Assembly: GCA_947184155.2 (NCBI GenBank)
Contig: CAMXCT020006764.1
Coordinates: 248,001-312,000 of the forward strand
Reading direction: 5' to 3'
Source of the DNA: Cladocopium goreaui
Taxonomy: Eukaryota; Sar; Dinophyceae; Suessiales; Symbiodiniaceae
Length of the DNA stretch: 64,000 nucleotides
Below, in pieces: positions 21,004-49,389 of the stretch. Under the pieces are notes generated by a model. That model was not told the origin of the DNA and searched no databases. It saw only the letters and a program-made list of their open reading frames with translations. Position 1 is the first letter of the stretch. Every line of letters begins with the position of its first letter. A program made the position numbers and the translations under genes.

Positions 21004-23061
21004 ATGAAAAAGTCTCGAAAAAGGGACTATGGGCAGGCTTTCACCATTCACCTGCCATCAGAAATCGATGCAGAGCAGAGTGATAAGTTTCTTTCCTGTT
21101 GCTCGGCGAATGGCCATGTGGTCGCAGTGCCCTACCATGCCGAGAGCATTCTGGTGGTGGATCCCGCATCTCCCCATGCTTTCGCTATCGAGCTGCCATC
21201 AGGCATCAATGCAGAGACACGTCATAAATTCCAATCGAGTTGCTCAGTGAATGGCCAAATTGTGGCAGTGCCTTTCAAAGCTGAGAAAATTTTGGTGGTT
21301 GATCCTCAGTCTCGTCAGGCCTTCACCATCGACCTGCCATCAGGCATCAAAGCAGACAGACGTGGCAAGTTTGCGTGCAGTTGCGTGGTGAATGACCAGG
21401 TAGTGGCAGTGCCCTATGATGCTGAGAAAATTTTGGTGGTTGATCCCCTATCTCGTCAAGCCTTTGCCGTAGACTTACCACCAGCAGTCTTCGCAAAGGG
21501 TTCAGCAAAGTTTCAAACCAGTGCTCTGGTGAATGGACAAGTTGTGGCTGTCCCCAATGATGCTGAAGAGATTCTTGTGGTAGATCCTGCATCTCGTGAA
21601 GCTTTCACCATTGAGCTGCCACTAGACATCGATGAAGAGCGGCTTGACAAATTCAAGTCGAGTTGCTCAGTGAACGGCCAGGTGGTAGCAGTGCCCTACT
21701 CGGCTGAGCAGGCGTTGGTGGTGGATCCCACATCTCGCCAGGCGTTCGCCATCAGTGCAGGTGGATGGCAATTCTTCAATTCCAGTTGCTTGGTGAATGG
21801 CCAGGTGGTGGCAGGGCCTTGCAATGATCGAGAGCACACTCTGGTAGTCGATCCTTTGTCTCGGCGAGCTTTCACCAGGTTTGTGCCATCAGGCAATCCG
21901 GCAGAGCAGAAAGACTTTGATTTTTTGCCCAGTTGCTCAGTGCACGGCCAGGTGGTGGCAGTACCTTGCGATGCCGCGAAGATTCGGCTGTTGTGTTCGA
22001 GGTCGTTGAGGCTTGGTTTGCCGACGAGTGATGTCCACACCACCCCGCAGTTTGTAGATCTGGTGGCAGCCTTATTGAGTTTTTGGATCTACACTGATGA
22101 CCCAGAACCTCCAACGTTGGAGCATGCCTCGTTTGAGGTTCATGATTGGGGTGAGCCGACAGAGGTGGGAAGACCTGTGAGACTGCGAGGTGTCATTGCA
22201 GATTTGCCTGTGGGGAAGGTGTTTTTCATTGTGTTCAGGAGAACGTCGGGCTTGCTGGATTTTGAGAACTGGAACTTGAAACCTGTCTATGTTTCGGATG
22301 ACTTTTTTGCCAGTAGGGGAGCAACATATGCCATGGCATGCATCAGACTTTGGATCGAGTGCCTTAGCCCGGCAAGATTTCGATTCCTCAGGGAAAACGG
22401 TGTGAAGAGAATTGTTTTTGCAGGACACTCAGTAGGTGGTGAGTATGCGCAGCTGTGCTTGATGATGTGGTGGAGAACGCTTCAAGCAAATACACCCAGA
22501 CGTATCTATCATTATCTATCTTCGTTTGATTTACAATGTATCACCTTCGGCGCTCCCATGGTTTTTGGGGGCAGCTCCAAGGAAGCCAGGAAATTCCAGG
22601 ACTTCGCTGAGGAGCGTGCTGTCAACTACATCCATGCTGATGATCCATGCCCAAGGGCTTGGGGCGCTTTGAAATTGCGAGATTTCGTTGAGAAAGCAAC
22701 CGTGGCCGTGAATGACGGTTTGACGGATCCGCATGGCAGCATCAAAGGGACTTTGTCACCGAAAGTTGTGGAAGAAATGGCAACCAAGTTCTTGAACAGG
22801 CCCGATTTCAATGTCATTGAGGATCTTGCCAAGAAATACGAGCATTTCATTCCTCTACGAATACTGAGTTCCAAGAAGGAACCTGATTCTTGGAAGGATT
22901 TCCAGTTGACGCCAGAGTGTTTTGAGGACCATTCCGTTTTGGCCTATGTGAACAAACTGTTTGATGCATTTGATGCCAGCCGGCCCGAGTGTCATGTTCA
23001 TCGCCATGTTCATCTCCAGACTCCTGAGTCTGAACACTGGCCTGCGACTTTAGGGGCCTAG
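21004..23061 (+). CDS. Propeller-repeat class-3 lipase, intronless
   Basis: A single open frame of 685 residues. The ATG at 21004 sits in a Kozak-like GCCACCATGA; the open frame extends 13 codons upstream to a TTG, which I do not take as the start. Residues about 10-330 hold seven repeats of about 42-48 residues with the pattern AFTIDLPSGI...KF..SCSVNGQVVAVPYDAEKILVVDP, consistent with the blades of a beta-propeller. Residues about 350-660 resemble a class-3 lipase: nucleophile motif GHSVGGEYAQL (Ser476), a candidate acid in HADDPCPR (Asp546) and a candidate His in EDHSVLAYV (His643). The expected role is acyl-ester hydrolysis; the substrate is unknown. No signal peptide is seen. The gene lies between two multi-exon genes and has no introns, which would fit a retroposed copy. 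Confidence 0.82.
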   Translation: MKKSRKRDYGQAFTIHLPSEIDAEQSDKFLSCCSANGHVVAVPYHAESILVVDPASPHAFAIELPSGINAETRHKFQSSCSVNGQIVAVPFKAEKILVVDPQSRQAFTIDLPSGIKADRRGKFACSCVVNDQVVAVPYDAEKILVVDPLSRQAFAVDLPPAVFAKGSAKFQTSALVNGQVVAVPNDAEEILVVDPASREAFTIELPLDIDEERLDKFKSSCSVNGQVVAVPYSAEQALVVDPTSRQAFAISAGGWQFFNSSCLVNGQVVAGPCNDREHTLVVDPLSRRAFTRFVPSGNPAEQKDFDFLPSCSVHGQVVAVPCDAAKIRLLCSRSLRLGLPTSDVHTTPQFVDLVAALLSFWIYTDDPEPPTLEHASFEVHDWGEPTEVGRPVRLRGVIADLPVGKVFFIVFRRTSGLLDFENWNLKPVYVSDDFFASRGATYAMACIRLWIECLSPARFRFLRENGVKRIVFAGHSVGGEYAQLCLMMWWRTLQANTPRRIYHYLSSFDLQCITFGAPMVFGGSSKEARKFQDFAEERAVNYIHADDPCPRAWGALKLRDFVEKATVAVNDGLTDPHGSIKGTLSPKVVEEMATKFLNRPDFNVIEDLAKKYEHFIPLRILSSKKEPDSWKDFQLTPECFEDHSVLAYVNKLFDAFDASRPECHVHRHVHLQTPESEHWPATLGA

Positions 23062-25858: not shown

Positions 25859-25864
25859 CACTGT
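25859..25864 (+). repeat. Target-site duplication, left (CACTGT)
   Basis: CACTGT directly precedes the 5' LTR and recurs at 35694-35699 after the 3' LTR. Confidence 0.85.
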
Positions 25865-26016
25865 TGTCAATTTGTGGTATGTGATACTCCATGTAAAGGC
25901 CAGGTTGTCACATGTAGTGTCTGCTGCCATTTCGGCTATCAGGGCCCTTGAGCTACATCGCTATCGCCACTAGCAAAAAGAGCCGCGTTGGACTGCACGA
26001 TACCGTTGCCAATTCA
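25865..26016 (+). repeat. 5' LTR (152 bp)
   Basis: TGTCAATTTGTGGTATGTGA ... GTTGCCAATTCA. Identical over its whole length to 35542-35693. Confidence 0.95.
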
Positions 26017-26019
26017 CAT

Positions 26020-26036
26020 TGGTAGCGGAGCAGGTG
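26020..26036 (+). promoter_or_regulatory. Primer-binding site, initiator tRNA-Met type
   Basis: TGGTAGCGGAGCAGGTG starts three bases after the LTR. It resembles the complement of the 3' end of eukaryotic initiator tRNA-Met (TGGTAKCAGAGC in many copia elements), with small differences. Confidence 0.7.
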
Positions 26037-26203: not shown

Positions 26204-29200
26204 ATGTCAGTAGCTGGACTTAGGTTTGGTTCTGACCGATCCACTGTGCCCCTAGAGACCAAGAGTGGATCATACATATACCATGGGGATGCAGCACATT
26301 ATCATGATTGGGAATTCCGGACCCTTTTGCGAATAAAGCTGTTTGATTCAAAGAAAGATGTAGAATCCTCCCCAACCGGAAGGAGTGCCGAGCCCGTTGG
26401 GCCGGACTCTGAAGCTGATGCTGGGATTTCACCCCATCCGCGCCCAGGCCGGCCAGATGACGAAGCCGGAGCCTCTGCCAGTCGAAGCCCTAAAGGGGAT
26501 GACACGGGTCGAGATCGTAGTGTCTTAGTCAACAAGGTCGTAGAAGGTCTTCGAGGTGATGCCTTTCTCATTGCCAGAGATCTCGGTTTGGAGACTCTGT
26601 CCCAAGAGGAAGGTCTTGAACGATTGGTTGAACGAATCAAGGCCCATGTTTTTCCCAGAGCTCAAGAAGAAGCCAAAGAACTCTTCAGAGCAGGGCAGAA
26701 AGCAGGTGGAGTTTTGTCCCGACAACCCCAAGAACCAATGCTGAGTTATACTCAACGCAGACGCAGATGGTGGAGAGTGTTGACCGAGCTTGATCCTTCC
26801 ATGGCACTTTCAGATGGACTCCGTATGGAGCTCATGCTTGAATTGTCAGGTCTGAGCCGGCAAGAGGTACTGGTCGTAAAAGCATGTGCCACCACCAAGG
26901 ACTTTGAAGGAGTTGCTAAGGTGTTGGTTGATCAGTATTCAGGAATCCATTTGAGGGAAGGATCCAAGTCTTGGGTTGGACGTTCATCTACCCCACAACA
27001 GTATGGGAAGTCTGGTAAGGGATATGGAAGTTCCAAAGGACCCCAAAGTGGTAAAGGTTCCTACAAGACAGCCTACAATGCCTATCCCGATGAGGAAGGC
27101 TATGGTTATGGTGACTATGATGAATACCAAGAGGAATACTATGAAGAGGATGCACCATACGTAGGTCTGCTTGGTGGGATCGAGGAACATCCAGAACAAT
27201 CAAGTCCAAATGTTGACAATCCCTATGAAGCCTTTGACTTTCACGACGAAGTTGATGAGTATGAAGCCACTGCCCTGAATGCACTAGTGGATGTAGGAGA
27301 TGAATCAACTGAAGATGACAAGAGCCTTGGGGAAGCTCTCCAACTCCAACTAGCTGCATTCGCAGCCTTCGGACGTGTGAAAGGAAAGGGTAAAGGCAAA
27401 CCCAAAGGAAAAGGGAAAATCATCAGGTCCAACTTGTCCATCGAACAGCGCAGGAAGCGCCTTTCCGAGATTAAGGCCAAGTCAAAATGCCTTCGCTGCG
27501 GCGCCTACGGGCACTGGGCAGGTGACCCCATTTGTAAATTCCCAGGTGCAAAGGGGAATGCTACTGCCAAGGATTCAAAACCCCCATCGAATCCTCCTAG
27601 GCCAACAGCGCACTTTGCAGACTTCTCGGAATCTTCATCAGATGAGGGAGTTTTCTTGAGTGCATCATCACCCAAAACACCAGTTGCAAACATGGCCATC
27701 AAGAGTGCAGCTGCCCTTTCAAAGGCACCCAGTTTGGGACCTCCCACAACTCCGGTAGGACGAAATGACCCGTCAAAACCTATTGGGAGTAACACGAAGT
27801 TCAAGTTTGGCCAGTTTAAGGGGAAGACGTTTTGGGAGATCTTGCATGATCATCCTGACTACTTTGCATGGACACAGAAGAACGCCAAGAGTCCAGGAGC
27901 CTCAGAGTATGCCGAGTGGGTGAACCAAAACTTTGAGTATCGGGGGAACATAGTGTATCGCAGAAGTAGTTTGGAGCCACCACCACCTCTTCCAAAGCAA
28001 CACACACGTTTGAGGAAGCCACCGAATCCACCAAAGGAGAAGTGTGCCAATTGCACCCAATTCACTCGTCAGGGGAGTACGGGTTACACCATCAAGGAGA
28101 CATGTCTGGTTTGTGGCCATTCAACTACTACCAGGAGAGAACTACTCCCCCAATATCCTTATGACCAGTGTCCACATGAAGACAAGGATTTTCGTGGTTC
28201 TTCAAGGTCTGTTCACCGAACCTTTTGTAAGCAGTGTTGCACGTATCTGGATGAGACTCCGATGGAGCTCCAAAGGACCCGAAAAGCAGTCTCCACCAAA
28301 GTCTTGGAAGCACCCCTGGAAAGAGTTTCCATCATTGAACAACTGGTTGATGATTCCAAAGATGCGACCTTTAGCCCCGACATGCTGGACATGATCCTCA
28401 ATGATTTTGCCACCTTAGTCGCCACCAGTTCTGAATCTGAGGCCATCACTTCGACCAAGCTGCATGAACTTCTCCACCAATCCATCGCCAATGCAGAAGG
28501 AGACAGCAGTTTTACCATGGTTGGTGATGTGGAAAACCCTGGGGAAGATTTTGCAGGTCTCGGAGTGTGTTTTCATGGGGACGAGCCAGATGTAGAGATG
28601 TCTGATGGCTTGGTGCATGTGTTCCAAGAGACCCGTGACATGTACGACATGAGTGATCCCAATATCTATGCCGTGTTGGATGAGGGGTGTAACTCAACTT
28701 GTCACTCCAAACATTGGGCTGAGGTAGTAACTGCCAAGCTGAAGAACTTGGGATACCAGTTTCCATTCAATGACACCAAGGGGAAAACCTTCTCTGGATT
28801 GGGGACCGGGGGAACCTCGACCGAGGGATCCCGTACATTGCCTTTCAGCCTGAATTTCATGGACAGCAAGTGTACACCCATTCATGGGGTACTTGAGACG
28901 CACCAACTTAGCTCCGGGACATCACCACTCTTGCTGTCACTGCATGCTCAAGCCCATCTTGGACTTGTCAAGGACTTGAAGAATGGAACAGTATCCATTG
29001 ATGGTAATCAGTTGCCAGTTTTCAGATGTTCTCATACAGGTTTGATGATGTTAGCAATCACCCCAAATCAAATTGATCCGACAGGAAAAACGTCCAATCA
29101 CATTTCACAACAGATCCCAAAGTGCCACAGAAAGTTTCGAACTGCCTTTGCCGCCCTATCCGACGAGCCTGGTTCGCCGTCGGCCAGTGAGATGTTGAGG

Positions 29201-32200
29201 TCTCCAAGTGGCTACAGCTCGTCAAGCGCAGATCACATCGAAGGTGCCGTGAACAACTGCCTGAGGGGACTGGACAGATCCCGATGCCTTGTGGTCACTT
29301 CAGGTGCTCGTTGGACAGGTCGACAGCCAAGCTTCCCTGGTGCTAAGGTTCTTCAGATTGACTGCAGGCATTTCCATGATCCTGACAGCGACAGATCGAT
29401 CCGAGGTTGCACTGGACGACATCCTAGCATTATCCGAGGAGTTGCACTTCATGAAGCAATGAATGACCTCGTTGAGCAGGTGACAGATTTCTTGAGGGCT
29501 AACCCGAATGGGAAGCTCGTGATCCACTTGTACTGCACCAGTGGTCGTCATCGCAGTGTTGGATTGGCAGCTTTGATCTACTACTTCTTGGACGTGACTG
29601 ATTGGAGGAAGCCTTTGCTGATCCATTATCACAGCCCGGAGTGGCGTGAGATGACTTGTGGAGGTCATTGCAGTCTTTGTGCAACAGCCGACACCAGAGA
29701 GCTTGGAAACTTGATGAACAGGCATCTTCCTGACGTGCGTGTTGTGGATGTGGATGAACCTGATAGGTCATCAGGAGTTACTAGGCCGCCTGAGCCTGTT
29801 AGGCCACCGGCACCAGGGCCTACTACAACGGCGACGAGATCTATCCCCACGTTGACACCATCCAGGACTATGCCAGTTCCAGTCCGTGCTCCTATGACAC
29901 CATCCTTTGGAGGTACATCGACGAGAACGCCTTTGACACCCAGGTATGTTCCAGCATATCCACCTCCAAGCCGTAGTGCTGGAGACTCATCTCGTGGAGG
30001 AGCACATCACGAAGGAGACGAACGAGGCCGTGATTATGGAGGACAAGACCGAGACTTAGCAGTACAGGTTCTTGCTAATCAGGTCCAGGAGCTCTCAGGT
30101 CTTGTGAGACAGGTGCTTGAAGGAGAACGAGCTGATCGTGGAAGGACCAGAAGAAGATCCTCTTCGAGCGGCAGGCGTGGTCGGCGATCTCGAAGCAGAC
30201 GCCGTGTGTCATCTCCAAGGGTACCTTCTCCAAGGACCCCTCCATCACCACCGAGGCCACCGATTCGACGCCCATGTGATGAGTCTCAGCGTCAGCGACT
30301 TGAGAGGGAACCCCGCGACATCTTGAACGACAACAGCGGAGACCCATATTGCTGGAATGTCGATGAAGACATCCTTTCTTGGATCATCTCTTCTGCAAAA
30401 CTGTGGGGAAACAGAGATCGGGTGATCTGGATTACAGACCCCAGCCTTCCTCATGAGGAGCAGCAGCAGCAAGGCATCAGGGTGGACATCAAGCTCAGAT
30501 CCCACGTGAGGAGCACTTTGATTTCAGGTGGCAAATGGATGAATCGACAGGGTTGGGTGAAATCGTCATTCTATCGACCACGTGATTCCGCAGGAACATT
30601 GTGGAACAGACTTCAACGGGAAGAAGCTGTTGGAGAGAACGTCGATCTCCCGACTACTTGGGCCGATTTGGTGATCTTCTCACATCGAGACGTGCGCCCG
30701 CGAGCATATACGGGGCGCGTGGTTTTGTTGTCAGGTGATCAGGGTTTTGAGGGCAGTATCGCACCAAAAACGGAGCCCCAAAACGCACCAAAAACGGAGC
30801 CCCAAAACGCACCAAAAACGGAGCCCCAAAAGAGCCAGAAATATGTCCCCAAAACAAAAGTCCATTTGCAGAGTCGAAAGAATCCTCCAACTCCACCACA
30901 GCCAAGTCGGTTTATGATTTGTACAGATGATGACATGTTCAAGGGAAACCCCAAGATTCAGACCCCGAAAGATGAGTCAACCGACTATAGCACAAGTTCA
31001 TCCGATGAGAGCCCTGTTGCCAAACCTGTGAAAAGCAAATCCTCCAATGGAAAGCCTTGTCATGAGAAAACCCCCAAGGATGAAGTGATCATCAAAACCG
31101 AACCCGGTGATGTACTGCCAGTTGGACTCATGGCCAGAGATCCAGATGGTCCCAACATGCATGAAGTTGTTCTGGACTCTGACACCGATGTTGAAGTGCA
31201 TGAACATGGTCCAATTGCCATCCAACCCAATGAGAGAGTCACCATGGGTAGGAAACACCGTAAAGCAGTGTTGGACGGTATTGCCAATTTGAACAAGAAC
31301 GGCATGATGATCCAGAGTGGACTTGGTTTGATTTCCAATCCCAATCGAGATAGCAAGACAGTTGTTTTCACTTCCCATCCGTTCGTGTTCGTCCAGGAGT
31401 CTGGCCAGCCTTCGGTCGACGTGATCGACGTTGGTGTGGGGGCCAGTCATCTTGACCCTGAATTTGACCCCAAAGATTTTTGTAATCTGTTGGAGGGGTA
31501 TCAAAACATTGTCATTGCCATTGGATACAACAACCCAAATGATCCATTGGGACATGGTCGTTTTCTGGCAGAAGTGGAGTTGATGTGCGACTTGGACAAT
31601 TGCAAGTTTCTGCACATAGATGTTGCCATGACTGATCGATGGGAGAAACATCAACACCCCCAAACACCATATATCAATGACCATGGTTTGGCATTCACAT
31701 GCAATGACGAACAGTGGACCCATGAGTTTGAATCTTGGTTTCGTGGACAGACGATGGACGATGTCTTGTCTTGGAAGTTTGCAGATTGGATTGGGAGTTG
31801 GGCCAAGGAAGATGATTTGAACCATCAAATGGGGATAGCGTTTGTGGGGGACATGCATGAAGAAGCACATGAAGAGCATCAACGACTTGACGCCCTCTGG
31901 GACTCCGATGACAGAGCCCAGGTGAACCCTGTTGAGGAACTGATTTCTGAGGAAACCCTCATTGACGAAGTCGAGATTCCAGGACTTCCACAAGATGAGG
32001 TGGAGAGACGCAGGCAGTGGAGAAAGCTTCCAGCCAGAGTGAGGATCGCTGTCAGGCGACTTCACCGTCAGTTTGGTCATGTGCCGAGGCAGACCATGAT
32101 CCACTTGCTTCGTGCTGCCAGGGTTCGAACAGAGTTCATTGATGCAGTAAAACTTCATAGGTGCACAGCATGTGAAGAAACATCCCGAAAGAAACCCACA

Positions 32201-33661
32201 CACAAAACTGCATTGCCCCACAACTACTCTTTCAACCATAGCTTGGGAATTGATGTTTTTGAGATCATTGATGCAGGTGGTTCCAAGTTTCAAGTTTTGA
32301 ACATGGTAGATCTTGGGACGACATTTCAACTGTGCGAGGTTGTCAGAACAGGCCAGGGACAGCCATCATCCAGTGAATGTCTGAAGGCCCTGCAGAAACG
32401 TTGGTTTTCATGGAGTGGACACCCAGTGAACTTGATGTGTGACCGAGGGTTGCATAACCGTGGTGTACTGTCAAAGTACATGGACGATCATGGCATTCAG
32501 GTTTATCACAGCCCACTTGAGGCACCTGAAAACCTTGGCCGTGTAGAGCGCCACGGGGCCATTGCCAAAGCTCTTTTCCGAAAGGTCTCAAAAGAAACTC
32601 AACCTCTTGGCAGAGAACAGGTTGAGTCAGTTCTGCAAGAGGTGCTCATGGTGAAGAATAATGCATCACGTGTAGGAGGTTTTTCACCATCACAGTGGGT
32701 GTTGGGTAAGGCACCACGCTCAGACCCCAGTCCATTGTCCGAAGAGCGATTTGCAGAGCTCGGAGCCTTGGAGGCCCAGCACAACCCCGAAAGCATTTTT
32801 GCTTTGCAGCATCTTGCTAGGCAGGAAGCACAGAAAGCATTTGTATACCTCGATTGCTCCAAGCGTGTCCAGCGAGCCATGACCAAAAACACATCACCTT
32901 TTCCGAGAGACTTCGAAATCGGGGACTTGGTGACTTTTCGCAGGGATAACCAGCGGGGAGGCACACGATGGAGTCCCACAAGTAGGGTGATAGGCCACGA
33001 GGGAGAGAGAAACCTATGGTTGCTTTGTGGAAATGTCCCGGTACTAGTGGCCAGTCAGAATGTGAAGGTAGCTACTCCAAGTGAAGCATTGGCGCATTCG
33101 GTTCTCCATGGGCAGCCTGTCATTCCTGATGAGGTCGTGATCGGAGGTGAACAGCAATCCTTTTTGGATGCTCGAATTTCCCCAGATTCCCAAAGTGACG
33201 GATATGAGCCATCCGTACTTGAGGCACCTGAACCAATTGCCTCAGGCGAGGGAGCTGAACTACCATTCATAAATTGGGGAGATAATAATGAGGATTTACC
33301 ACCAATACCCGAAGATGAAGAATTGGATAATGCAGGGGTAACTGTACCGGAAATCACCATTGATGGTGAAGACATGTCAGATGAAGTAAATGGTACAGAT
33401 GAATTGATTGAAGCTGCCAGTTCCAGTCTGGACAGACGGAGATCAAGTGTTGCCCCTCGTGCCGACAGAAACGTGAGACCCCGTCTTGAAACCCAACCTG
33501 AGAGTGAAAGAGGGTCATCGCTTATGCCTTCCAGGCGCGAATCTGTTGACTCAGCAGACAGACCTTCTGCTGAAGCACCACAGCCAACACCATCACAAGC
33601 CGCAGGGCCACAATCATGGCCCAATCCGTATGACAGTCTTATGACCTTCCAGCATCCCTGA
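26204..33661 (+). CDS. Copia polyprotein part 1: gag, protease, RapZ-C-like domain, integrase
   Basis: 2,485 residues. Gag-like helical region at about 180-250; Gly/Tyr-rich segment 265-320; zinc knuckle CLRCGAYGHWAGDPIC (429-444; CX2CX4HX6C); FGQFKGKTFWEILHDHPDYF (about 534), like the C-terminal patch of ExoX-type proteins; a second Cys-rich region (613-690); protease with LDEGCNSTCH, where Asp826 is followed by Glu rather than Ser or Thr; a RapZ-C-like domain (about 1027-1190); an RS-rich segment (about 1305-1350); a segment of unknown fold (1380-1510); integrase with HHCC finger (from RRLHRQFGH, about 1952) and DDE residues near D2017, D2080 and E2115. The frame ends at TGA 33659-33661, before the reverse transcriptase. 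Confidence 0.93.
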   Translation: MSVAGLRFGSDRSTVPLETKSGSYIYHGDAAHYHDWEFRTLLRIKLFDSKKDVESSPTGRSAEPVGPDSEADAGISPHPRPGRPDDEAGASASRSPKGDDTGRDRSVLVNKVVEGLRGDAFLIARDLGLETLSQEEGLERLVERIKAHVFPRAQEEAKELFRAGQKAGGVLSRQPQEPMLSYTQRRRRWWRVLTELDPSMALSDGLRMELMLELSGLSRQEVLVVKACATTKDFEGVAKVLVDQYSGIHLREGSKSWVGRSSTPQQYGKSGKGYGSSKGPQSGKGSYKTAYNAYPDEEGYGYGDYDEYQEEYYEEDAPYVGLLGGIEEHPEQSSPNVDNPYEAFDFHDEVDEYEATALNALVDVGDESTEDDKSLGEALQLQLAAFAAFGRVKGKGKGKPKGKGKIIRSNLSIEQRRKRLSEIKAKSKCLRCGAYGHWAGDPICKFPGAKGNATAKDSKPPSNPPRPTAHFADFSESSSDEGVFLSASSPKTPVANMAIKSAAALSKAPSLGPPTTPVGRNDPSKPIGSNTKFKFGQFKGKTFWEILHDHPDYFAWTQKNAKSPGASEYAEWVNQNFEYRGNIVYRRSSLEPPPPLPKQHTRLRKPPNPPKEKCANCTQFTRQGSTGYTIKETCLVCGHSTTTRRELLPQYPYDQCPHEDKDFRGSSRSVHRTFCKQCCTYLDETPMELQRTRKAVSTKVLEAPLERVSIIEQLVDDSKDATFSPDMLDMILNDFATLVATSSESEAITSTKLHELLHQSIANAEGDSSFTMVGDVENPGEDFAGLGVCFHGDEPDVEMSDGLVHVFQETRDMYDMSDPNIYAVLDEGCNSTCHSKHWAEVVTAKLKNLGYQFPFNDTKGKTFSGLGTGGTSTEGSRTLPFSLNFMDSKCTPIHGVLETHQLSSGTSPLLLSLHAQAHLGLVKDLKNGTVSIDGNQLPVFRCSHTGLMMLAITPNQIDPTGKTSNHISQQIPKCHRKFRTAFAALSDEPGSPSASEMLRSPSGYSSSSADHIEGAVNNCLRGLDRSRCLVVTSGARWTGRQPSFPGAKVLQIDCRHFHDPDSDRSIRGCTGRHPSIIRGVALHEAMNDLVEQVTDFLRANPNGKLVIHLYCTSGRHRSVGLAALIYYFLDVTDWRKPLLIHYHSPEWREMTCGGHCSLCATADTRELGNLMNRHLPDVRVVDVDEPDRSSGVTRPPEPVRPPAPGPTTTATRSIPTLTPSRTMPVPVRAPMTPSFGGTSTRTPLTPRYVPAYPPPSRSAGDSSRGGAHHEGDERGRDYGGQDRDLAVQVLANQVQELSGLVRQVLEGERADRGRTRRRSSSSGRRGRRSRSRRRVSSPRVPSPRTPPSPPRPPIRRPCDESQRQRLEREPRDILNDNSGDPYCWNVDEDILSWIISSAKLWGNRDRVIWITDPSLPHEEQQQQGIRVDIKLRSHVRSTLISGGKWMNRQGWVKSSFYRPRDSAGTLWNRLQREEAVGENVDLPTTWADLVIFSHRDVRPRAYTGRVVLLSGDQGFEGSIAPKTEPQNAPKTEPQNAPKTEPQKSQKYVPKTKVHLQSRKNPPTPPQPSRFMICTDDDMFKGNPKIQTPKDESTDYSTSSSDESPVAKPVKSKSSNGKPCHEKTPKDEVIIKTEPGDVLPVGLMARDPDGPNMHEVVLDSDTDVEVHEHGPIAIQPNERVTMGRKHRKAVLDGIANLNKNGMMIQSGLGLISNPNRDSKTVVFTSHPFVFVQESGQPSVDVIDVGVGASHLDPEFDPKDFCNLLEGYQNIVIAIGYNNPNDPLGHGRFLAEVELMCDLDNCKFLHIDVAMTDRWEKHQHPQTPYINDHGLAFTCNDEQWTHEFESWFRGQTMDDVLSWKFADWIGSWAKEDDLNHQMGIAFVGDMHEEAHEEHQRLDALWDSDDRAQVNPVEELISEETLIDEVEIPGLPQDEVERRRQWRKLPARVRIAVRRLHRQFGHVPRQTMIHLLRAARVRTEFIDAVKLHRCTACEETSRKKPTHKTALPHNYSFNHSLGIDVFEIIDAGGSKFQVLNMVDLGTTFQLCEVVRTGQGQPSSSECLKALQKRWFSWSGHPVNLMCDRGLHNRGVLSKYMDDHGIQVYHSPLEAPENLGRVERHGAIAKALFRKVSKETQPLGREQVESVLQEVLMVKNNASRVGGFSPSQWVLGKAPRSDPSPLSEERFAELGALEAQHNPESIFALQHLARQEAQKAFVYLDCSKRVQRAMTKNTSPFPRDFEIGDLVTFRRDNQRGGTRWSPTSRVIGHEGERNLWLLCGNVPVLVASQNVKVATPSEALAHSVLHGQPVIPDEVVIGGEQQSFLDARISPDSQSDGYEPSVLEAPEPIASGEGAELPFINWGDNNEDLPPIPEDEELDNAGVTVPEITIDGEDMSDEVNGTDELIEAASSSLDRRRSSVAPRADRNVRPRLETQPESERGSSLMPSRRESVDSADRPSAEAPQPTPSQAAGPQSWPNPYDSLMTFQHP
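29282..29772 (+). other. RapZ-C-like domain inside the copia polyprotein
   Basis: Residues about 1027-1190. The order of motifs, VLQIDCRHFHDPD, then GCTGRHP, then VIHLYCTSGRHRSVGLAALI, matches the C-terminal domain of RapZ (D-C-R-F..P, G-T-G, CTGGxHRSV). The CX5R core (Cys1111) also resembles the P-loop of cysteine phosphatases. Residues downstream (CGGHCSLCATAD) could bind metal. Function in the element is unknown. Confidence 0.65.
30761..30832 (+). repeat. Three 24-bp in-frame repeats
   Basis: GCACCAAAAACGGAGCCCCA AAAC occurs three times, encoding APKTEPQN each time, in a linker of the polyprotein. The repeats are identical, so they are recent. Confidence 0.95.
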
Positions 33662-35355
33662 GGAGCCACTTTGAGCGAGCCCGAAATGCGGCCGCACAAT
33701 GGTCCGTAGAACAAGTTGAACAGTCCACAGCCATGTTCACATGTTTTATGGCAGGGAAAGATGAGATTGTAGAAGAAGGCAAGAAGGTCCTGAAAAGCAT
33801 TCATTTCGAATCAGCGCCACCTGAGGTTCAAAAGGCACTGCAAGCTTCTCGAGCCCAGGAATGGTCAAAGTTTGAAAGCTTCGGAGCAGTCGTGCCACTG
33901 ACTCCGGATCAAGTGCAAGAGCTTGTTGCTGAGGGACATCAGATTATACCCTCCAAATGGGTAGATGTTGACAAAGCTCAGTACAAGAAAGGCCGAGATC
34001 CAAATTACCAGCCACAATACAAAAGCAGGTTAGTTTCCTGCGGAAACTTCGAATGCAGTGACGGTCTGAGGTCAGACAGCCCCACAGCTGACATTGAGGT
34101 TCACAACCTCATTTGCTGTTGGTGTGCAGCACATGAGCTCGACTTGCATTCGGCTGATGTGACATCAGCATATTTCCAAGGACGACCTTTGGACCGGGTA
34201 CTCCTGATGAGACAACCCCGGGGTGGCATCCCAGGAGTTGACGAGGGAATTGTTTACCTCGTAAGGGTACCAATCTATGGACTCACAGACTCAGGTCGCG
34301 GATTTTGGCTGCGATTGGATGGAGATGCCAAGAAAGAAGGCATGAAAGCATCACAGTTTTTCCCAGGTCTTTATTTTCTTCCAGGGAGCGATGGTGATAC
34401 ATGCGCATTGATGTGCACACATGTTGACGATCTTTTGTACTGTTACTTGCCCGAAGGTAAGGAAGTCATCGAACGTTTTCTGAATAAGTTCAACATCGGC
34501 AGCACCGAAGTGAACGAGTTCAGGTATTGCGGAAAGCAGTTTTCGCGTTCAGGTGACGGAGACATTTTCGTCGACACCGTCGATAACACCAGGAAGATCA
34601 AACCAATTCCAATTGACGCTGGCCGTCCAGGCAGTGAGAAGATTTCAGGTGATGACATCACACGACTTAGGTCGGTGACCGGGTCACTCGCTTGGGTTGC
34701 TCGCCAGACAAGACCAGATTTGGCGTACCGAGTTAGCCGCCTACAATCTTCAATCAAAAATGCCACAGTCAGCACTTTGTGCGACGCAAACGCAGTTGTA
34801 CAACTTGCTCACAAAGGTGATCAGGTAAGGCTTCGTTTTCCAAGCGGACATCTCAAATGGGATGAGATAGGTCTGATCACAATTACTGACGCTTCATTCT
34901 CCAATGAACAGAACTACCGTTCCCAACAGGGACGTTGTCACTTTCTTGGAGACCTCACAGAGATCAAGAGCAGTAGCTGCAACACGTACAGAGTAATGCC
35001 TCTGTCTTACAGCTCTACCACGATCCGACGTGTGTGTCGAAGCACGCTCCAGGCTGAGACGTATTCACTGCAGCATGGTCTCGAAGCAGGGGACAAGCTC
35101 AGAGGTGTCTTGGCAGAACTCAAAGGCCAGATCAAATCCATGCGGACATGGGAAACTGATGCAAGGAGCTGCGTACCGCACTTAGCCCTCACAGATTGCC
35201 GCTCATTGTCAGACCACTTGGCTTCCGAGATCCTGGCGAAGGTGAGCGACAAAAGACTTGGCATCGAATTACAAAGTATTCACGAATCCTACTGGAATGA
35301 TGACCGAAAACATGGGACATCTATCCGAATGGAGGAGATAAGCTGTCATGGATAG
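33628..35355 (+). CDS. Copia polyprotein part 2: reverse transcriptase and RNase H
   Basis: The first ATG is 33733, but the frame is open from about 33628, overlapping the end of part 1 in the -1 frame; SHFERARNAAAQWSVEQVEQ upstream of that ATG looks like coding sequence. Reverse transcriptase motifs: KSRLVSCGNFE, HSADVTSAYFQG, YGLTDSGRGFW and the catalytic THVDDLL (D232/D233 from 33733). RNase H: TITDASFS (D386), QAETYSLQHGLEA and LTDCRSLSDHLA. Ends at TAG 35353-35355, about 30 codons short of the usual end. Confidence 0.93.
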
Positions 35356-35541: not shown

Positions 35542-35693
35542 TGTCAATTTGTGGTATGTGATACTCCATGTAAAGGCCAGGTTGTCACATGTAGTGTCTG
35601 CTGCCATTTCGGCTATCAGGGCCCTTGAGCTACATCGCTATCGCCACTAGCAAAAAGAGCCGCGTTGGACTGCACGATACCGTTGCCAATTCA
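35542..35693 (+). repeat. 3' LTR (152 bp)
   Basis: Base-for-base the same as 25865-26016. No strong polypurine tract precedes it; the best is GAAGAACAGG at about 35527. Confidence 0.95.
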
Positions 35694-35699
35694 CACTGT
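35694..35699 (+). repeat. Target-site duplication, right (CACTGT)
   Basis: Matches 25859-25864. Confidence 0.85.
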
Positions 35700-49123: not shown

Positions 49124-49389
49124 ACAATTATATATTCATTCCATTAATATCCCAGCTATAGATGATTTTTCACTATTAATTACATACACATGCATACAGT
49201 ACACATATGTATAAACATATGCACAAAATAATTATATATATTTATTCATACAGAAACAATCCGCATACATATGCATATACATATACATGCACACCTATTA
49301 TATATGTTTATATGCATATATCCGTGGCCATTTTGTCTCAAGCGCGATTTGCGATTTGTCGCACTAGTGTTGTTTTATTTTATCTGACA

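Follow-up and report, generated by a model that had tools for sequence, protein, structure and literature searches.

Retroelements that have captured regulatory domains are known from published descriptions (PMC5890265, PMC9289625), as is recombination between elements with long terminal repeats (LTRs). The C-terminal domain of RapZ (RapZ-C) has been studied as a bacterial domain of small RNA (sRNA) control and metabolite sensing. As reported for E. coli (PMC9841335, PMC5737377), the isolated domain binds sRNA stem-loops as a dimer, with a pocket that includes H190, T248, G249, H252 and R253, and C247 nearby; the RNA phosphate backbone lies over a sulphate/malonate pocket, where glucosamine-6-phosphate (GlcN6P), also bound by the bacterial domain (PMC9841335), is thought to compete. 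Here RapZ-C is described from a clade of eukaryotic retroelements, where it is old, has been maintained and exists in many copies. The stretch analysed (the window) comprises 64,000 nucleotides of the dinoflagellate Cladocopium goreaui (contig CAMXCT020006764.1, positions 248,001 to 312,000, forward strand), in which a copia polyprotein frame of 2485 residues (26204–33661) sits between two LTRs.

Homology of the embedded domain to RapZ-C

The initial annotation had proposed a RapZ-C-like domain at 29282–29772 of this polyprotein, between the protease-like part and the integrase, from three ordered motifs. IDCRHFHDP (29354–29383 with the preceding Q), GCTGRHP and CTSGRHRSV (29534–29560) do occur in that order and position in the 26204–33661 frame, and the 163 residues encoded by 29282–29772 match Pfam PF22740 (RapZ_C) with 43.6 bits (E 4.1e-11; cut-off 27). 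The proposed interval holds the domain, but the core match is narrower, covering residues 1049–1132 (29348–29599, plus strand). Against the whole 2485-residue frame PF22740 scored 37.6 bits, and the NCBIfam RapZ model was matched in its C-terminal part with E 7e-7 and 29 bits (full-length cut-off 244).

When the window sequence alone was compared with the Protein Data Bank (PDB) by phmmer, E. coli RapZ came first (E 0.033). A family profile built from nine members, four of them from family A (the window's own family), matched RapZ (5o5s) with E 9e-5, the next molecule, a non-phosphatase, following at E 0.46. When profiles were compared, nine stand-alone RapZ-C domains (eight of them on viral contigs and one on a bacterial contig) gave a probability of 98.4 and E 5.7e-15 (single comparison) over 98 columns. 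Whole-protein PF22740 scores were below the cut-off in four other copies (L016, 24.7; L017, 23.4; L022, 23.0; L023, 22.1), and in L027, L028, L035 and L038 this profile found no match up to E 0.1. Taken together, the profile matches demonstrate homology to RapZ-C at the level of sequence. The N-terminal kinase-like domain of RapZ (PF03668) had no match in the genome, in a search that was positive in six of 14 control genomes; because this domain was not found, the window domain is, by these comparisons, a RapZ-C domain and not a RapZ protein.

Distribution in a single copia clade

The genome searched consists of 1.17 Gb in 6202 contigs. Other copies and families carry the domain, as the initial annotation would have predicted: among the best 150 of 179 candidate places found with the window domain, 11 are identical over all 163 residues and 143 are stop-free in the matched stretch. 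A genome search with PF22740 gave 181 candidates, and 137 of the best 150 are above the cut-off, one of these only together with its neighbours in the same frame. RapZ-C lies upstream, on the same strand and at a distance of 4.1–11.2 kb, in 74 of the 80 reverse transcriptases (RTs) nearest to that of the window (the best 80 of 5548), versus none of the best 150 of 7362 candidate RVT_2 matches (canonical copia), a zero that rests on the listed RapZ-C matches, so that very diverged domains could escape. This test used a 12-kb limit and 181 RapZ-C places entered from the listed matches, that is, detectable domains (a 22-residue fragment in C1002 and a second piece in C3558 were left out); the nearest RTs gave 83 rows for 80 candidates, the second pieces in C4119, C4101 and C984 being dropped. 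Two polyproteins read among the 150 canonical copia matches, L053 (1858 residues) and L054 (2498 residues), contain no RapZ-C by profile.

Five of the six exceptions among the 80 have a visible cause: the contig ends first (C2809), the domain is deleted (C592), it lies on the opposite strand ~5 kb off (C208 and C535) or it is ~12.6 kb away, outside the 12-kb limit (C4346). The sixth (C4101) is partial and unexplained.

The order gag, protease (PR), RapZ-C, integrase (INT), RT is common to families A, B, C and E in pairwise BLAST comparisons, with RT identity to family A of ~70% in B and ~43% in C and E; family H has the same order from gag to the linker, as far as the fetched stretch reaches. 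Families F (L033, L035) and G (L038), each represented by short stretches, are putative copia families. Within the lists searched, RapZ-C is fixed between the protease-like motif and the integrase and confined to one copia clade. The order shared by A, B, C and E and the presence of the domain across the clade thus make it a long-established, regular component.

The deletion in C592 (201900–205300; two stretches read, L067 and L068) is in frame and removes 1827 nt, from the protease motif to near the cassette end described below. Its joint has a 5-base microhomology (GGTTG); splicing was rejected as the cause of the gap, as its ends are unlike those of an intron and the microhomology indicates a plain deletion. 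The 2069-residue frame of L020 is spurious, produced by a run of N, and in L019 N makes up 4490 of 10000 bases; both loci were used for domain sequence only. In the canonical copia element L054 (C1289), a methyltransferase-type motif was seen by eye in the protease-integrase gap (residues ~640–900), for which there was no PDB match up to E 5 and no Pfam match. Additional domains may generally be accommodated in this gap.

Exchange of the domain as a cassette

Mosaic LTR retrotransposons arise by template switching or recombination between related elements. In family B, alignment of copies shows RapZ-C to be exchanged, as the head of a cassette of ~500 residues, between elements that are otherwise nearly identical. 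Between L017 and L026 the proportion of synonymous differences (pS) is 0.52–0.98 in one block, residues ~980–1500, and 0–0.27 in the bins outside it; L025 has the same pattern as L026, with synonymous differences of 47–88% in the block. The diverged block contains RapZ-C, a Cys extension, an Arg/Ser-rich linker and one more conserved stretch. Over the domain itself, L017 and L026 differ with a pS of 0.758 and a nonsynonymous proportion (pN) of 0.150. L016 and L017, in turn, differ by ~15% over the rest of the frame while sharing most of the block.

Backbone and cassette were typed in 18 aligned B copies (L016, L017, L021, L024–L026 and L055–L066), with upstream types u1, u2 and u3 defined by a 3% cut and cassette types B1 and B2. 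L063 differs from L055, L058 and L061 at none of 390 upstream bases and at 130 of 537 cassette bases; the converse case is L056/L060, with 18 upstream differences and a single one in the cassette. Seven copies are u1B1, seven u1B2, two u2B1, one u2B2 and one u3B2. All four combinations of u1 or u2 with B1 or B2 occur, an outcome that mutation by itself could hardly produce. The left breakpoint lies ~150 codons upstream of the RHRSV motif. Queried with the B1 cassette, the genome returned 20 copies at 96–100% and 20 at 76–81% identity, with none between (best 40 of 94), while the region upstream of the cassette in L017 found only matches of 98–100% identity (best 40 of 98); 12 of these 40 are also among the 20 B1 copies.

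For family A, pS in the cassette stretch versus its left neighbour is 0.84 versus 0.47 in L009/L013 and 0.69 versus 0.47 in L009/L012, with no contrast in L009/L011 (0.75 versus 0.74); this divergence, from broken copies, is only suggestive. No diverged block was seen along the frame in the synonymous differences of L009/L010 or L022/L023. The corresponding stretch in the window is approximately 29114–30860 (plus strand), its edges being projected from family B: the left directly after IPKCHRKF and the right near KTEPQKSQKYVPKTK.

Selection on the domain

Nonsynonymous and synonymous divergence (dN, dS) was counted by the Nei-Gojobori method in 16 pairs, eight of which had unsaturated, countable change. 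In keeping with the proposal of the initial annotation that the domain had been retained, dN/dS is 0.075–0.251 in seven of these eight: L009/L010 (0.175), L016/L017 (0.251), L022/L023 (0.075), L034/L037 (0.104), L022/L037 (0.085), L033/L035 (0.113) and L009/L012 (0.091). The domain ratio is below that of the rest of the frame in five of the eight (L009/L010, L022/L023, L022/L037, L033/L035 and L009/L012). The highly diverged pair L009/L018 gave 0.305, six further pairs were saturated at synonymous sites and are given as pS, and window and L009 differ by one synonymous and no amino-acid change. Broken copies (L011–L015) also carry decay into these counts. On this evidence, RapZ-C is under purifying selection in most countable pairs.

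Pocket residues and C-terminal extension

RapZ residue equivalents were taken from the alignments of the two PDB searches (single sequence and nine-member profile). The equivalents of C247, H252, R253, V255 and G200 are present in all nine aligned members, the K251 position is R in all nine, and R196 is kept as R in eight. D182, required for dimerisation of the RapZ C-terminal domain as reported (PMC5737377), corresponds to D in seven and N in two. T248 is kept in four of the nine, and families B, D and E have a basic residue (K or R) there. Since C247, H252 and R253 are invariant and H190 is mostly replaced, the phosphate-binding loop appears to be kept and the second pocket wall changed. The loop, CTSGRHRSV in the window (29534–29560, plus strand), corresponds to C247-X5-R253 of RapZ and to C85-X5-R91 of P0001; it is common to RapZ-C and hence non-specific for phosphatases.

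In the retroelement copies the core is followed by a Cys extension, LIH..S..W.EM.CGG.C..C (LLIHYHSPEWREMTCGGHCSLC in the window; 29615–29680, plus strand), and then by an Arg/Ser-rich tail. The H, W, M and two Cys of the extension are invariant in the nine family members, and it is absent from the ten phage and bacterial RapZ-C proteins aligned with the window.

Proposed function and alternatives

The most economical reading of these sequences would be that the domain binds RNA or phosphate on behalf of the element. Our best explanation, tentative at a probability of roughly 0.45, is that this copia clade carries a RapZ-C-type domain that would work as an RNA- or phosphate-binding module, with cassette exchange altering its specificity. 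The domain would be either released from the Gag-Pol polyprotein or kept within it; the C-X5-R loop (C247/H252/R253, position 251 being basic and position 248 too in some families) would contact a structured RNA, for which the RNA of the element itself or its primer complex is the likeliest candidate, and the Cys-rich knuckle and Arg/Ser-rich tail would help to grip it. Exchange of the cassette would change the specificity of this grip, and related elements might thereby distinguish RNA or partners of their own from those of others, or evade a host factor. Cassette exchange suggests a specific task of this piece in the element, and a role in specificity is pointed to by the divergence of the exchanged alleles, in each of which amino-acid changes are few relative to synonymous ones. 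Whether the cassette is an interchangeable specificity determinant for recognition of self and non-self RNA (own genome, primer, host), with alleles shuffled by template switching, is doubtful; if true, a retroelement would here contain a system of self/non-self distinction derived from a domain known so far from bacterial sRNA control. Cassette exchange also offers a direct handle on function, as two natural alleles occur in nearly isogenic backbones, and hints that retroelements can evolve by exchanging specificity modules.

Several observations weigh against a binding module of exchangeable specificity. The G249 equivalent is kept in only one of the nine aligned members, and the H190 position is D, E or A in eight and H in one; exchange of H190 for Ala inactivates E. 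coli RapZ as reported (PMC9841335), and its loss counts against a copy of the bacterial binding mode. The loop Cys is lost in both H copies read (L027 and L028), although these are short frames that may be decayed. Domain identity between families A and B is only 30–32%, versus ~46% from gag to RapZ-C and 57% from integrase to RT. The domain dN/dS of L025/L026 is 0.634 (from few changes), versus 0.176 over the rest of the frame, and the domain ratio also exceeds the rest in L016/L017 and, slightly, in L034/L037, making three of the eight pairs. Cassette sharing between L016 and L017 is partial, with pS of 0–0.02 in five of eight bins and 0.13–0.46 in three. The B-type copy in C592 has lost the protease motif, domain and linker, yet persists in the genome. 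Retroelements are known to exchange sequence by template switching, and such exchange could be neutral.

Among the alternatives, the one that survives best, though we think it unlikely, is a host-interaction or anti-silencing module whose ligand would be an RNA, nucleotide sugar or phosphorylated signal of the host and which would dampen host control of the element, with cassette exchange as the trace of an arms race. The diverged cassettes within near-identical backbones, with few amino-acid changes (pN 0.150 and pS 0.758 in L017/L026), would fit, as would the GlcN6P binding reported for the bacterial domain (PMC9841335) and the described precedents of DNA methyltransferases (DNMTs) in Symbiodinium LINE and DIRS elements (PMC5890265) and of AlkB in orchid Gypsy elements (PMC9289625). 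However, no host partner is known, and the data fit equally well with the element recognising its own RNA; these sequence data do not discriminate between that, host interaction and an enzymatic role.

The initial annotation had also raised a CX5R phosphatase, and this did not hold as an identity: no phosphatase profile scored above its cut-off, the closest being the Rit1 DUSP-like domain (14.6 bits, Pfam cut-off 22), and the PDB matches of the family profile up to E 10 include no phosphatase. As a function it is kept as a weak rival and is improbable. The C-X5-R loop (CTSGRHRS) would then act as a cysteine or RNA phosphatase in reverse transcription or RNA end processing, for which its C and R in nine of nine aligned members, the weak Rit1 DUSP-like match (E 0.04) and the density of a likely chemically changed product, reported after soaking GlcN6P into the E. 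coli domain (PMC9841335), could be adduced. But RapZ-C, which shares the CX5R loop, is described chiefly for its binding (PMC9841335, PMC5737377), the H members L027 and L028 lack the loop Cys, and the dual-specificity phosphatase 7ncy, found in the single-sequence PDB search at E 0.71, is at chance level.

That the domain is a passenger or spacer, an old in-frame insertion drifting along with the polyprotein, is very unlikely. In favour of this reading, the domain has diverged faster between families A and B than gag and RT have, one copy (C592) lacks it and L025/L026 has the high ratio of 0.634; against this stand the low dN/dS in seven of eight countable pairs, the 143 stop-free rows of the best 150 and the residues D, D, G, C, RHR, V, H, W, M and C, invariant among members with identity down to 28%. 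Mis-assembly or contamination, with a bacterial RapZ fused to a retroelement in the assembly, can practically be discounted, as nothing was found in its favour, many copies on many contigs have one architecture, the RapZ N-terminal domain was not found in the assembly and the domain is far from the prokaryotic relatives found.

Relatives outside the copia elements

A tree was built from 30 domains: 15 retroelement rows, five frames without copia similarity, nine phage or bacterial domains and E. coli RapZ. The retroelement rows group with four of the non-copia frames from the same genome (L029, L030, L032 and L036); the fifth, L031, joins the phage and bacterial domains and E. coli RapZ on a long branch. 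Support is low, with the prokaryotic domains forming one group in 56% of bootstrap trees, and branches are long. The retroelement rows do not form one group, as non-copia (host-like) frames are both basal to and inside them. Capture of the domain, as put forward in the initial annotation, is plausible. Two scans of genome contigs for a prokaryotic source gave zero and one relative. A single-protein search of viral contigs with the window domain found no relative, and a search of these contigs with the nine-member profile found seven loci.

RapZ-C frames without copia similarity were noticed at L029, L032 and L036 and at L031 (C2669), with six further places scoring the same as L031; the frames at L029, L031, L032 and L036 are possible host genes and possible donors. 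At L030 (C158:121000–125500), RapZ-C lies behind a weak glycosyltransferase-like match, and eight further places have the same PF22740 score, six of them with frames of 897 or 898 residues similar to L030; this frame may be a gene or part of another mobile element. Five loci on IMG/VR contigs (L041, L043, L044, L048 and L049) are stand-alone RapZ-C frames. PHROG 18111, matched by L044, is labelled ATPase, and its 128-position profile matches the RapZ C-terminal domain.

Structure of the element and other features of the window

The element is bounded by a 157-nt repeat (25865–26021 and 35542–35698) with one mismatch, at position 155; the TG...CA part of 154 nt, taken as the LTRs (5′ LTR, 25865–26018; 3′ LTR, 35542–35695; both plus strand), is identical. 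CTGT borders both LTRs on their outer sides (25861–25864 and 35696–35699), a 4-bp flanking match; Ty1/copia elements have TG...CA LTRs and a 5-bp target duplication. The initial annotation had described an intact domain in an element with identical LTRs, which stands for the domain and for the LTRs over 154 nt but not for the whole element, in which the RT is in another frame (33733–35355, plus strand; RVT_2, E 1e-12) than the upstream gag-protease-RapZ-C-integrase frame (26204–33661, plus strand). In copy L009, RapZ-C and the RT share one frame of 3059 residues.

Along the element, the parts are a zinc knuckle, an ExoX-like motif, a protease-like DEG motif, RapZ-C, Arg/Ser-rich low complexity, integrase and RT. 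The zinc knuckle, CLRCGAYGHWAGDPIC (27488–27535, plus strand), on the gag side, was identified by eye, and Pfam gave no match for one in this frame. The ExoX-like C-terminal motif (PF20600; 27800–27883), in the gap between gag and protease, scored 24.2 bits (cut-off 26.5), with 25.3 bits in L013 and weaker scores in L022/L023. By eye, the putative protease active site is VLDEGCNSTCHS (28673–28708, plus strand), with DEG replacing D-S/T-G, versus DSG (DSGAATHV) in the canonical copia L053; no protease profile matched the window frame. The protease-like motif of family B also reads LDEG by eye. Within the cassette, a Leu-containing stretch (possible helix) is followed by Arg/Ser-rich and Pro-rich runs (30080–30262, plus strand; by eye). 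The integrase (residues 1936–2153; 32009–32662, plus strand) matches an IS481-type transposase profile with E 1.9e-6 and 27.6 bits (the model's full-length cut-off being 224), and the RVT_2 RT lies 3′ of it, all on the same strand, as in Ty1/copia elements.

An initiator-tRNA primer site after the 5′ LTR was considered and dropped, as the guessed tRNA start occurred once in the genome, equal to its backward control; ARAGORN reports no tRNA in the window. An antisense open frame of 443 residues (30998–32329, minus strand) overlaps the linker and integrase and is probably due to chance. Elsewhere in the window there are five tandem copies of a 141-nt unit (21034–21738), four of them 62–74% like the reference copy, and a near copy of the dinoflagellate spliced leader (49322–49342) with 2 mismatches, of which shuffled sequences contained none.

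Comparison with known systems

In the open-access literature searched, no paper was found that links RapZ with a retrotransposon, with Symbiodinium or with a eukaryotic transposable domain, or that mentions PF22740. The domain described here adds an RNA-binding candidate to the regulatory domains taken up by retroelements. With the E. coli RapZ C-terminal domain (5o5s, 5o5o, 8b0i) it shares a homologous core, the same motif order and the equivalents of C247, H252, R253, R196 and mostly D182; it differs in being embedded in a polyprotein without the N-terminal kinase-like domain, in the replacement of H190 in most members and in the added H..W..M.CGG.C..C and Arg/Ser-rich tail. The viral (phage) stand-alone RapZ-C proteins likewise have no N-terminal domain, but are small free proteins, most with an NPH motif, and lack the Cys extension.

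SymbioLINE-Dnmt and SymbioDIRS-Dnmt3 are also dinoflagellate retroelements with an added old domain under purifying selection, although they belong to other element classes and carry another domain; the Copia elements of that account are without DNMT, and its description of the DNMT elements includes no cassette exchange (PMC5890265). The orchid Ty3/Gypsy elements with an AlkB m6A demethylase are, as described (PMC9289625), LTR retrotransposons with a captured RNA-acting domain, but in a Gypsy element, in an additional reading frame, with another domain and in another host. Plant LTR retrotransposons with additional open reading frames resemble the present clade in that conserved extra coding parts recur, in some families, in most or all copies; in the account given (PMC7264820), these lie mostly between pol and the 3′ LTR, whereas RapZ-C occupies the protease-integrase gap inside pol.

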